This document shows, piece by piece, positions 4,072-47,403 of a DNA stretch of 52,919 nt; within the stretch, counting starts at the first letter, position 1; each line of letters begins with the position of its first letter. The translations under genes were made by a program, and so were the position numbers. The stretch lies in NCBI GenBank assembly GCA_016871175.1, contig VFZL01000030.1, forward strand, positions 1 to 52,919. The letters are read 5' to 3'. The notes under the pieces were generated by a model that worked only from the letters and a program-made list of their open reading frames with translations, was not told the DNA's origin and ran no database searches. The stretch is from Acidimicrobiia bacterium. Its GTDB lineage: Bacteria > Acidobacteriota > Vicinamibacteria > Vicinamibacterales > CAVVIG01.

Positions 4072-4204
4072 GGCTGCGGGCTGAACCGCGGTCCGGAACC
4101 TGTGCAATTCCAGACTACGAACCGCGTCAGGACCGGAAGGTAGCAGCGCTAAGTAGACCCTGCAATGTGCCGCAGGCCCTCCGGATCGCGGTCCAGCCCG
4201 CAAC
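4072..4204 (+). ncRNA. ffs: Bacterial small signal recognition particle RNA (4.5S-type)
   Basis: The conserved SRP domain IV core is present near 4126-4153: GTCAGGACCGGAAGGTAGCAGC, including the GGAA tetraloop and the AGCAGC internal loop that binds Ffh. The flanks close a long hairpin: GCGGGCTG (4076-4083) pairs with CAGCCCGC (4194-4201), and the adjoining AACCGCGGTCCGGA pairs with TCCGGATCGCGGT. The length of about 130 bases is a little longer than E. coli 4.5S RNA, and the Alu domain is absent. It lies directly upstream of dnaX, a neighbourhood also seen in Firmicutes. The exact ends are approximate. Confidence 0.88.
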
Positions 4205-44707: not shown

Positions 44708-45700
44708 TTAACGCGTGCCGGCGGTGCGCTCTGCGACGAGCCTTTGAACCAGACTGTCGAGCTCGGCTTCGGGCATCTGCCCAGGGTGATAGGACCGCAC
44801 GATCCCCGCGCGGTCGAGCAGGACGAGCGTGGGCGTGGTGCTGACGCCGTAGCGCTGGTGATTCGCTTCAGCGAGCGTCACCGCGCGGTCGTCGAGGAAC
44901 CCGTACTGCGCGCTCTTGATGTCGGCGATGTAGCTCCGTTCCTCCTCGGGCCCCGCTTCCTTGCCCCTTGCGACGTATCCGTAAAGCTGCGTGGGCGCGA
45001 TGACCGAGAGCCCCTGCCCTTCGTGCTTCTTCAGCAGGTTGGCCAGTGCCGGCCCCTGATTCTTGCAATCGGGACACCAGTGCGCCCAGAAGAACAGGAT
45101 CGTGACTTTGCCTTTGACGGCCTCGAGCGAGAGCGGCTTCGGTGCGAGTGACTCGGAGAGATCGAGTGACGGTGCCTTCGTCCCCTCGAGACTGAGCAGA
45201 TTGATGTTCTTCTGAATCCGCTTGGTCATCGACGTCTTGCCGTAGGTCTTCAGCTCGCGGCGCAAGTAGGCGACCGCTTCGCTGCGCGCGCCGGTCGCGG
45301 CGCGAGACTGCCCAATCACCTCGATGGCGGCACCCAACGCGATTGGCAGCCGAGGCTCATCGTCCAGGCCTCGAGTCTTGAGCAACCCGCGTACGAGGTC
45401 GTAGGTCTGATTCGCGTAGCTGGTCGCCTGGTCGTACTGCTTGGCCGCCAGAGCCCCGCGCCCGAGCCACGACACGGCTTCCACCATCTCTGGGGTGAGA
45501 CCCCGCGCTTGGCGATAGTCGGCGATGAGCTGCTCGCCGCCCTTGAAGTCCTGCTTGGCGATGGCGGCTCGAACCGTGGGCACCAACCCTTGCGGCACCT
45601 GCTGCGCGTGCACCCGCGAGCCGACCAGAATGGACGCGATCGTCAACGCGAACGCCGCTTTGACGACGCGTGAGTGCCGGCGCGCGATCTCTTGCTGCAT
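44708..45700 (-). CDS. TlpA-like thioredoxin-fold protein with N-terminal helical repeats
   Basis: This 330-residue protein has a signal peptide (ALTIASILVGSRVHAQQ), a helical region resembling TPR-type repeats (about 40-165), then a redoxin domain with active site WCPDCK (C209, C212). TPTLVLLD, containing the cis-Pro loop, follows. The CPDC site and export fit a periplasmic TlpA/ResA-like thiol-disulfide reductase. ATG 45700 is used because GAGAGG lies seven bases upstream. It follows the YtxJ gene by 31 bases on the same strand, and faces the probable selenoprotein gene, so the three form a thiol-redox cluster. Confidence 0.85.
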   Translation of the reverse strand: MQQEIARRHSRVVKAAFALTIASILVGSRVHAQQVPQGLVPTVRAAIAKQDFKGGEQLIADYRQARGLTPEMVEAVSWLGRGALAAKQYDQATSYANQTYDLVRGLLKTRGLDDEPRLPIALGAAIEVIGQSRAATGARSEAVAYLRRELKTYGKTSMTKRIQKNINLLSLEGTKAPSLDLSESLAPKPLSLEAVKGKVTILFFWAHWCPDCKNQGPALANLLKKHEGQGLSVIAPTQLYGYVARGKEAGPEEERSYIADIKSAQYGFLDDRAVTLAEANHQRYGVSTTPTLVLLDRAGIVRSYHPGQMPEAELDSLVQRLVAERTAGTR

Positions 45701-45731
45701 GTGTGCCTCTCCTACGCAATGCACGATGGTG

Positions 45732-46109
45732 TCAAGCCATGGCCCCGTCCACGGCAGAACGGATCGCGGATGCCGTCACCCGATGGTGGGACGCGTGCCA
45801 GCGAACCCGCTCGCGGCCAACGACCAAGACCTGCGGTGACTCGTGACGTACGCCAAAGCGCTTCACGATGGCGTTCGACACCTGCCGATCGGTCCGGACG
45901 TCGATAAGATACCACTCTCTGACCCCAGGCCCGGCTGCGTCGAGCATCTGCTCGTACGCGGCGGCGCTGACGCCGCATGTCGTGCTGTGCTTGAAGAGGA
46001 CGATCGGACGCTGGCGCGAGGCCGCGACGGCGTGGTCCAGCTCGGCTTCTGTGGTCAGCCGCTTGAAATCGGGCGTCGACGGAGGGCGTTCGCGGGCATT
46101 CCGCCTCAT
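45732..46109 (-). CDS. YtxJ/BrxC-like monothiol bacilliredoxin
   Basis: This 125-residue cytoplasmic thioredoxin-fold protein carries HSTTCGVSAAAYEQM, with a single active-site C45 in the position of the bacilliredoxin YtxJ (BrxC) Cys (family form: HSTxCxxSxxA). SPQVLVVGRERVRWHASH with a cis-Pro before it is also typical. These proteins reverse protein bacillithiolation in organisms that make bacillithiol; production here is not shown by this window. No Cys pair and no signal is present. It is divergent from the probable selenoprotein gene (106 bases). Confidence 0.82.
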   Translation of the reverse strand: MRRNARERPPSTPDFKRLTTEAELDHAVAASRQRPIVLFKHSTTCGVSAAAYEQMLDAAGPGVREWYLIDVRTDRQVSNAIVKRFGVRHESPQVLVVGRERVRWHASHHRVTASAIRSAVDGAMA

Positions 46110-46215: not shown

Positions 46216-47403
46216 ATGCCTACTCTGGCGTGCATGCAGCCGTACACGCAGGCGAGGCGACGAATCTGGTGCCCGATCCTTGCCGCAGCCTCGCTGATGC
46301 TCACGTCACCATCTGATGGCACGGCCCAGGCTCTCCCGCCCGCCGCAAAGGCGCCATTGAACCTGTCAACGGTCGGTCCGCAGATTGGTCAACAGGTGCC
46401 CGAGTTCCGCCTAATGGATCAGAACGGTCGGGCGTGGACACGAGACTCGATCGCGGGACCGAAGGGGGCGATGCTCGTCTTCTTCCGGTCCGCCGACTGG
46501 TGACCGTACTGCAAGACGCAGCTCGTCGAGCTGCAAGGTCGTCTCGCGGAGCTGAGGAAACAAGGGCTTGGCGTGGCCGCAATCAGCTACGACGCGCCGG
46601 CCGTCCTGCGCGCCTTCGCACAACAGCGCGGCATCACGTTCCCGCTCCTCTCGGATGCGGAGTCTGCCACGATCCGCAGCTTCGGGCTGCTGAATCCCGC
46701 CGTGGAGTGGGGCCTCGGGCCCGATCGCGACGACCCCGCGATTGCCACCGAGGTACGGCGCCTGGTGTCGGCTGCGGGACGCGCGAGCGAGATGATGCGC
46801 GGTATGGCGCTGCCGGGGACGCTGATGCTCGATCGCCGCGGCCGGGTGACGGCGCGGTTCTTCGAGGACTTCTACGTCGATCGCAATACCGTGGCGAGCG
46901 TTCTCGTGCGCGCCGGCAGCGGCGACAAGCCAGTCAGCGCCACCCGTATTTCGAGCGAGCAGGTCGAGCTCACCGCGTTTGTCAGTGACGCGGAGGTGGC
47001 GCCTGGCAACCGCGTGTCGATCGTGCTCGACGTCGTGCCGAAGAAGGGGATGCACGTGTACGCGCCAGGTGCCGCGGGTTACAAGGTCATCGGCTTGACG
47101 CTGGACGCGCAGCCCTTCGTGAAACCGCTGCCGATGATCCATCCGCCGTCGGAGATCTATCACTTCCAGCCCCTGAATGAGCGCGTGCCCGTCTTTCAGA
47201 AAGCGGTGCGGCTGACACAGGACGTGCTCATCGAAGGCACTGCGCCCGCCCAAGCCGCATGGCGCGAGAAAACGACGGTGACGCTGGCGGGCAGGGTCGA
47301 GTATCAAGCGTGTGACGACAAGGTCTGCTACAGCCCGGTCTCGGCGCCGGTGTCGTTTGCGGTCGCGCTCAAGCGGTTAATCACGGAGAGGATCAAGCAG
47401 TAA
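46216..47403 (+). CDS. Probable selenoprotein: redoxin with UxxC site fused to DsbD-alpha-like domain
   Basis: The frame is open from ATG 46216 to a TGA at 46501-46503, then continues in phase to TAA 47401-47403 (395 residues if TGA is decoded). The redoxin domain reads FFRSADW-[TGA]-PYCKTQLVELQ; the TGA occupies the position of the redox Cys of a CPYC site, giving Sec96 and Cys99. The downstream part retains AAISYDAPAVLRAFAQQ, ITFPLLSD and PGTLMLDRRG, so peroxiredoxin-like folding is intact. From about residue 250 a DsbD-alpha-like domain (VVPKKGMHVYAPG) ends with Cys366 and Cys371 (ACDDKVC). It has a signal peptide. ATG 46234 is an alternative start. A nonsense mutation of a Cys codon is the main alternative. 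Confidence 0.75.
46501..46534 (+). promoter_or_regulatory. Candidate bacterial SECIS element next to the UGA codon
   Basis: UGA 46501-46503 is followed by 14 bases, then a perfect 7-bp hairpin: GCAGCTC (46518-46524), loop GTC, GAGCTGC (46528-46534). The loop begins with G-U and lies 21 bases after the UGA, within the window usual for bacterial SECIS elements that bind SelB. The same bases encode QLVELQ, so the hairpin could arise by chance from codon choice. Confidence 0.5.

Follow-up and report, generated by a model that had tools for sequence, protein, structure and literature searches.

A probable acidobacterial selenoprotein that combines an in-frame UGA redoxin with a DsbD_N-like domain

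The window (the whole stretch of DNA that was analysed, 52,919 nucleotides) contains a predicted selenoprotein gene together with two neighbouring redoxin genes and a small RNA gene. The features are as follows.

46216..47403, + strand: predicted selenoprotein gene, a continuous frame of 395 codons plus TAA with one UGA apparently read through as Sec
46216..46332, + strand: probable export signal (n-region RRR, hydrophobic stretch, AQA), by sequence inspection
46375..46920, + strand: redoxin domain (AhpC-TSA), residues 54-235, from Pfam, an AlphaFold2 model and structural matches
46501..46503, + strand: predicted Sec-encoding UGA, residue 96; the position is conserved and Cys codons alternate there
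46510..46512, + strand: Cys99, partner of Sec96 in the UxxC motif, invariant in a 63-row alignment
46518..46534, + strand: candidate SECIS hairpin, 7 bp stem and 3-nt loop GUC, within published bSECIS constraints
46936..47385, + strand: DsbD_N-like domain, residues ~241-390, from PF11412 (E 1.3e-07) and Foldseek
47311..47313, + strand: Cys366, first Cys of YQACDDKVCY, invariant in a 46-row domain alignment
47326..47328, + strand: Cys371, second Cys of the Cx4C pair, invariant in the same 46-row alignment
45732..46109, - strand: BrxC-type bacilliredoxin neighbour (PF11009, E 6.7e-29), also found within 3 kb in loci L048 and L081
44708..45724, - strand: TlpA-like redoxin neighbour with a WAHWCPDC site (PF08534/PF00578)
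4091-4189: bacterial small SRP RNA (71 bits)

The ATG...TAA frame at 46216-47403 holds a single internal stop, the TGA at 46501-46503 (codon 96), and the 299 codons downstream of it are open. The surrounding peptide reads FFRSADW-U-PYCKTQLVELQ, so that the TGA occupies the first Cys position in a W-C-P-Y-C redoxin site, giving a UxxC motif (U-P-Y-C). The initial annotation had described one frame open on both sides of the TGA, flanking redoxin motifs and a UGA within a Trp-U-Pro-Tyr-Cys site. All three observations are borne out, the second by a Pfam match to AhpC-TSA (PF00578, residues 57-213, 91.9 bits against a cut-off of 26, E 3.8e-26) that spans the stop. Purifying selection acts on the frame downstream of the TGA: a pairwise comparison with the same-genus homologue L048 gave dN/dS values of 0.183 after the TGA and 0.305 before it, and values after the TGA ranged from 0.07 to 0.31 in 6 of 7 other pairs, with dS saturated in the seventh. 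The initial annotation had also remarked that further genes in the window are broken. A crude scan of the window for other stop-split genes, confined to stop-split frames, yielded 233 frame pairs; the best 25 of the 233 were inspected and contained no obvious other case, the gene itself ranking 22nd.

Codon 96 was compared across 89 distinct homologous loci, drawn from 60 related genomes and a scan of a genome collection. From this set, tblastn rows below 90 bits (L047, L126 and a second L032 row among them) had been removed, as had loci with no difference across the 120 nt surrounding codon 96. TGA is present in 45 of the 89 and TGC or TGT in 44, a Cys share that may be inflated, as one of the six peptide patterns used for the genome-collection scan was the active site written with Cys. 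Every homologue without UGA thus encodes Cys at position 96 (44/44). The TGA therefore alternates with Cys codons in the homologue alignment that the initial annotation had proposed as a check. That annotation had also regarded Cys in all close homologues of the genus, combined with reads not supporting TGA, as evidence against Sec; the same-genus relative (L019/L048, 69% identical) has TGA, not Cys, at this codon. A coincidental in-frame TGA was considered and rejected, given that the same codon is TGA in the 45 loci above and in all eight further loci that were retrieved and cover the site (L129-L135 and L140). Among 149 genomes drawn from the phylum, the family profile matched at E <1e-50 in 18 genomes (27 matches), with at least one TGA anywhere in the match for 21 of the 27 matches and 15 of the 18 genomes.

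Three same-order genomes (L132, L134 and L140) carry a distant paralogue, 30-32% identical, that reads RSAVW-U-PYCRTQLVELQ with TGA at the site and hairpin-like downstream codons. A gene in a MAG record titled Bifidobacterium breve (L070) has a score and identity equal to those of the acidobacterial L021 (genome G021); this record is probably a mislabelled bin, and was left out of the locus count as identical around codon 96.

The initial annotation had made selA, selB, selC and selD the first point to check, and all four were found in the source genome (4.44 Mb, 85 contigs, 96.8% complete). A profile search of its contigs identified selA (579 bits), selB (340 bits over its joined pieces) and selD (379 bits) adjoining each other in a cluster on contig C29, while tRNA-Sec (selC; 74.6 bits, anticodon TCA) lies on another contig. 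A second tRNA match above cut-off, at 51 bits, is a tRNA-Ser. Judged by this gene content, the source cell is predicted to be able to make selenocysteine. The selD gene (L139) itself contains a single in-frame TGA, set in AGUAAKLG, which we take to resemble the SelD active site, and is thus a predicted selenoprotein in its own right.

The presence of the TGA follows that of the machinery across genomes. The sample comprised 30 of the 60 relatives' genomes (the source genome included), those with codon 96 checked in at least one copy, the other 30 being uncounted. At least two of selA, selB and tRNA-Sec were found in all 26 genomes with a TGA copy, and all three in 19 of these; G011, counted among the 26, also carries a Cys copy. 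In the remaining seven, one part is missing: G037, G048 and G011 lack a tRNA-Sec match, G057 and G024 lack selB over cut-off, G009 lacks selA over cut-off, and in G010 selB is split across two frames and falls below cut-off. These absences are possibly draft gaps. The four Cys-only genomes (G007, G014, G021 and G022) are all without a selA match and without selB over cut-off, and their best tRNA-Sec match is in each case a tRNA-Ser. Taking genomes as independent, the chance of the 26/4 split is 1 in 27,405, a value that serves as a guide only because the genomes are related. The calls depend on two thresholds. tRNA-Sec was scored as present at 56 bits or more, since the best lower matches examined (in the source genome, G011, G037, G048, G007, G014, G021 and G022) were tRNA-Ser, those of G014 (50.4 bits) and G022 (48.8 bits) lying above the Rfam cut-off of 47; these calls used the score alone, except in the source genome. 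selB was counted solely over its curated cut-off because the profile matched at some level in 60/60 genomes and in 14/14 control genomes.

On a tree of the family, the Sec/Cys state changes at least 9 times (8-9 over bootstrap trees), with at least 4 changes forced by well-supported branches. The tree was built from a 63-row protein alignment with the Sec column left out, includes 39 of the 45 Sec loci, and has an outgroup that does not form one side of a branch.

Downstream of the UGA, the candidate SECIS hairpin begins after 15 nt and its loop after 22 nt. The bSECIS constraints given in the accessible part of PMC13188914 (Fig 2 legend) are a loop of 3-9 nt, a stem of 4-16 bp, G in the first two loop positions, a spacing of 16-37 nt and an MFE of -7.5 or below. 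The window hairpin falls within these limits, having a 3-nt loop with G first and then U, 7 bp and a 22 nt spacing, and its MFE is -12.9 kcal/mol (nt 7-42, numbering from the U of UGA). The window region alone (62 nt) folds no better than shuffles (z -0.16), and the signal of the putative hairpin is one that emerges only from comparison of many homologues. A stem of at least 6 bp with a G-bearing loop occurs in 44 of 45 Sec genes, compared with 3 of 25 acidobacterial Cys genes (L057, L065 and L105; the 25 being those of at least 200 bits among the 44 Cys loci) and 5 of all 44 Cys genes. The contrast between Sec and acidobacterial Cys genes has a Fisher p of 6e-14, uncorrected for kinship. In the Sec genes, synonymous variation is the lowest of its residue class at Gln102, Leu103, Glu105 and Leu106; permutation of the entropies (39 of the 45 Sec loci) gave 0 in 20,000, with a resolution of ~1 in 100 set by few control columns (2 Gln, 2 Glu and 5 Leu). 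A synonymous-shuffle test gave p 0.053 for the window gene, and p <0.05 individually in 6 of the 45 Sec genes. This test is borderline for most genes, probably because the conserved QLVEL peptide folds easily when written in GC-rich codons. The hairpin alignment (A3, 40 sequences) shows few compensatory base changes, 3 cells in 2 pairs. The covariation score was 0.041; one slid control scored higher (0.051), but only 26% of its cells were paired. Covariation counting is weak here because the stem hardly varies.

At the protein level, the N terminus carries the probable signal described above, with a possible alternative ATG start at 46234. A signal-like N terminus, defined as one or more K/R followed by a hydrophobic 11-mer, is present in 56 of 63 aligned homologues, and the product is probably exported. 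The AlphaFold2 model is confident (pLDDT 92.5) and contains two domains. Structural matching, which covered mostly residues 52-235 and hardly the second domain, identified the Bcp4 and AhpE peroxiredoxins as the best matches (Z ~20, model residues ~53-235). In the AhpE alignment, Sec96 lies at the Thr of TGIC and Cys99 at the AhpE Cys, which we take to be the peroxidatic Cys. With Sec96 replacing the Thr and Cys99 at the AhpE Cys, the site is of the thioredoxin-like UxxC type, which fits a role for Sec96 as the presumed attacking residue. The site departs from that of peroxiredoxins proper, printed as PxxxTxxC/U in the accessible part of PMC13188914, in that the Thr position is taken by Sec96, or by Cys in homologues. 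No NCBIfam model matches the protein over its cut-off: the SelL-related redox protein model NF040769 matches part of the redoxin domain (43.4 bits, cut-off 120), and the ResA-like WAxxUGC selenoprotein model NF041054 scores 22.4 bits (cut-off 300).

The initial annotation had described the product simply as a redoxin. The redoxin domain is indeed present, but it is followed by a second domain that the annotation does not mention. The Pfam match to DsbD_N (PF11412) is moderate, with 32.1 bits against a cut-off of 25 and a whole-protein span of residues 259-375, and the same model matched at E <=0.001 in 54 of 63 family members. When modelled alone, the C-terminal domain reached a pLDDT of 93.6. 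Its 7 Foldseek matches with E <0.001 are without exception N-terminal domains of DsbD or ScsB, some of them from complexes with DsbC or with the C-terminal domain of DsbD, and the TM-scores are moderate (0.41-0.57 by query, 0.40-0.66 by target); a sequence search of the PDB with the C-terminal half gave no match. The remotest homologues, most of them proteobacterial, are shorter proteins with nothing beyond the redoxin domain. The N-terminal domain of DsbD/ScsB is the periplasmic partner of redoxins in known systems, and the presence of a DsbD-like C-terminal domain likely changes the mechanism from the earlier redoxin-only reading. The source genome has one DsbD_TM match, on contig C24, and the same protein scores over the cut-offs for DsbD_N and Thioredoxin_7. 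That genome also encodes DsbD_N as a separate protein, in which the YQACDDKVCY site recurs (L141, contig C27), and matches to the DsbD_N-like part alone appear in several relatives.

We propose that the UGA at 46501-46503 is decoded as Sec by SelB and tRNA-Sec, directed by the downstream hairpin, as the in-silico evidence suggests; that the gene encodes a genuine selenoprotein is almost certain. The product, presumably exported, would use the Sec96-x-x-Cys99 pair of its Prx-like redoxin for thiol/disulfide (selenenylsulfide) chemistry on extracytoplasmic substrates, which could be protein disulfides or peroxides. Cys366 and Cys371 of the DsbD-alpha-like domain would then pass electrons to the oxidised Sec96-Cys99 pair, and would in turn be refilled by the single DsbD of the genome (contig C24), the likely primary donor. 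This electron route is suggested by domain identity and the invariant cysteines, and we hold the internal relay to have slightly better than even odds. For the reading as a whole, a selenoprotein with hairpin-directed Sec whose exported redoxin and DsbD-alpha-like parts form a relay fed by DsbD, we estimate a probability of about 0.87.

Sec96 or Cys99 might react with peroxide, making the protein a peroxidase with the DsbD-like domain as its built-in reductant, as opposed to a disulfide reductase of other proteins. The nearest solved relatives, the 1-Cys peroxiredoxin AhpE and the Bcp proteins, and the alignment of Cys99 with the conserved AhpE Cys are in line with this possibility. Against it, the replacement of the Prx Thr of TxxC by Sec96 creates a thioredoxin-like UxxC site, and selenoproteins with PF00578 and UxxC are filed as Prx-like thiol:disulfide oxidoreductases in the accessible part of PMC13188914. 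In our judgement a disulfide substrate is somewhat more likely than a peroxide, and a peroxidase function possible but somewhat doubtful.

UGA-Sec genes in general could in principle act as a selenium switch, and the UGA might here end the product after 95 residues at low selenium and allow the full redox relay at high selenium. While such a switch is compatible with all of the sequence evidence, the truncation would precede the active site and leave no complete domain. Furthermore, the repeated Sec/Cys exchange and the Cys-only copies in four machinery-free genomes suggest that it is the full-length protein that is selected, and a switch appears improbable. The initial annotation had named as its strongest alternative a nonsense mutation, with a TGC-to-TGA change making the gene a pseudogene of a Cys-type redoxin. 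The Cys codon in 44 of the 89 loci would fit such a change, but the same TGA recurs in the same-genus relative and in 45 loci, the frame stays open under a dN/dS of 0.183 downstream, the source genome has the complete Sec machinery, and the TGA tracks that machinery across genomes. The conserved TGA and the downstream selection are decisive, and a nonsense mutation is not credible. Reassignment of UGA in the lineage (e.g. to Trp), to which the in-frame UGA is the sole pointer, has a negligible probability given that the neighbouring brxC gene ends in UGA as an ordinary stop, that the non-UGA homologues all have Cys at position 96 and that a tRNA-Sec with anticodon TCA is present.

An annotation that treats UGA as a stop would end the gene at codon 96 and lead to a truncated or pseudogene call. 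As the UGA at the active site is apparently read as Sec, the gene is most likely intact although software would call it broken, and the 45 TGA loci point to dozens of intact genes of this kind.

Selenocysteine redoxins that combine PF00578 or PF08534 with UxxC are listed families in the accessible parts of PMC13188914 and PMC9312934. The protein shares its Pfam domain and UxxC with the Prx-like thiol:disulfide oxidoreductase selenoproteins (PF00578, UxxC/UxxU; PMC13188914 and PMC1794560, both available in part). The DsbD_N domain is a feature of the window protein that a comparison by description did not show for the listed PF00578 UxxC members (representative WP_010940744.1; PMC13188914). The redoxin family selenoprotein (PF08534, UxxC; HEU0032618.1) is likewise a UxxC redoxin and could be the same family, being known from a table entry that gives no architecture (PMC13188914). 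The partly accessible ocean survey (GOS) describes a Prx-like selenoprotein fused to a Cys-bearing unknown domain, Unknown_3 (PMC2398784), which like the window protein joins a Sec redoxin to an extra domain with Cys residues. By its description Unknown_3 is set apart by three conserved Cys including a CxxC, whereas the window domain has one invariant Cx4C and a DsbD_N match (PMC2398784). The TsoB rhodanese/DsbD fusion-like selenoprotein (NF045694, UxxxxU), a table entry in PMC13188914, also has a DsbD-like part, but there the Sec is in Ux4U and the partner is a rhodanese, while in the window protein the DsbD-like site is Cx4C and the Sec is in the redoxin. The SelL-related redox protein (NF040769) resembles the redoxin domain in part, far below cut-off. 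The DsbD/ScsB N-terminal (alpha) domain itself has PF11412, the fold and the paired Cys in common with the window domain, which differs from DsbD in being fused to its presumed redoxin substrate and in lacking the DsbD transmembrane part.

Among the literature matches listed, which covered few subscription papers, no description of a Sec redoxin-DsbD_N fusion was found; in the literature searched, UxxC Sec redoxins are thus known and the fusion to a DsbD_N-like domain is apparently new. For the phylum, the accessible parts of the sources give 4 selenoproteins in 3 families in Acidobacteria (2006 survey; PMC1794560) and one acidobacterial genome with 3 known genes (deep-Sep; PMC12013277), and no acidobacterial entry was found in that of PMC5029168. 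With so little on Acidobacteriota selenoproteins in the partly accessible literature searched, the gene would extend the known Sec repertoire of a major, mostly uncultured soil phylum. We tentatively suggest that it represents an undescribed, Acidobacteriota-centred family, in which an exported Sec redoxin and a DsbD-alpha-type reductase domain of its own share one chain. Such a protein would be a self-contained selenium electron relay supplied by DsbD, and Sec would give way to Cys in lineages that lose the machinery for it. The architecture makes reduction of a selenoredoxin by a DsbD-alpha domain within one chain testable, and raises the question of why Sec is kept where Cys suffices in machinery-free genomes.

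Several neighbours of the gene (the tlpA-like, brxC and DUF5916 genes) are common to the same-genus L048 only, where the tlpA-like gene lies ~3 kb away. Elsewhere single neighbours recur, with brxC beside L081, a tlpA-like gene directly before the Cys-type gene in L032 and a DUF5916 gene beside L030, and a 360-aa neighbour has weak matches in L054, L060 and L068. Since many loci are short, neighbourhood conservation carries little weight. Bacilliredoxins are known from bacillithiol users. In the window, the TlpA-like redoxin and BrxC-type bacilliredoxin genes (44708-46109) are divergent from the selenoprotein gene, an arrangement that hints at a redox locus.
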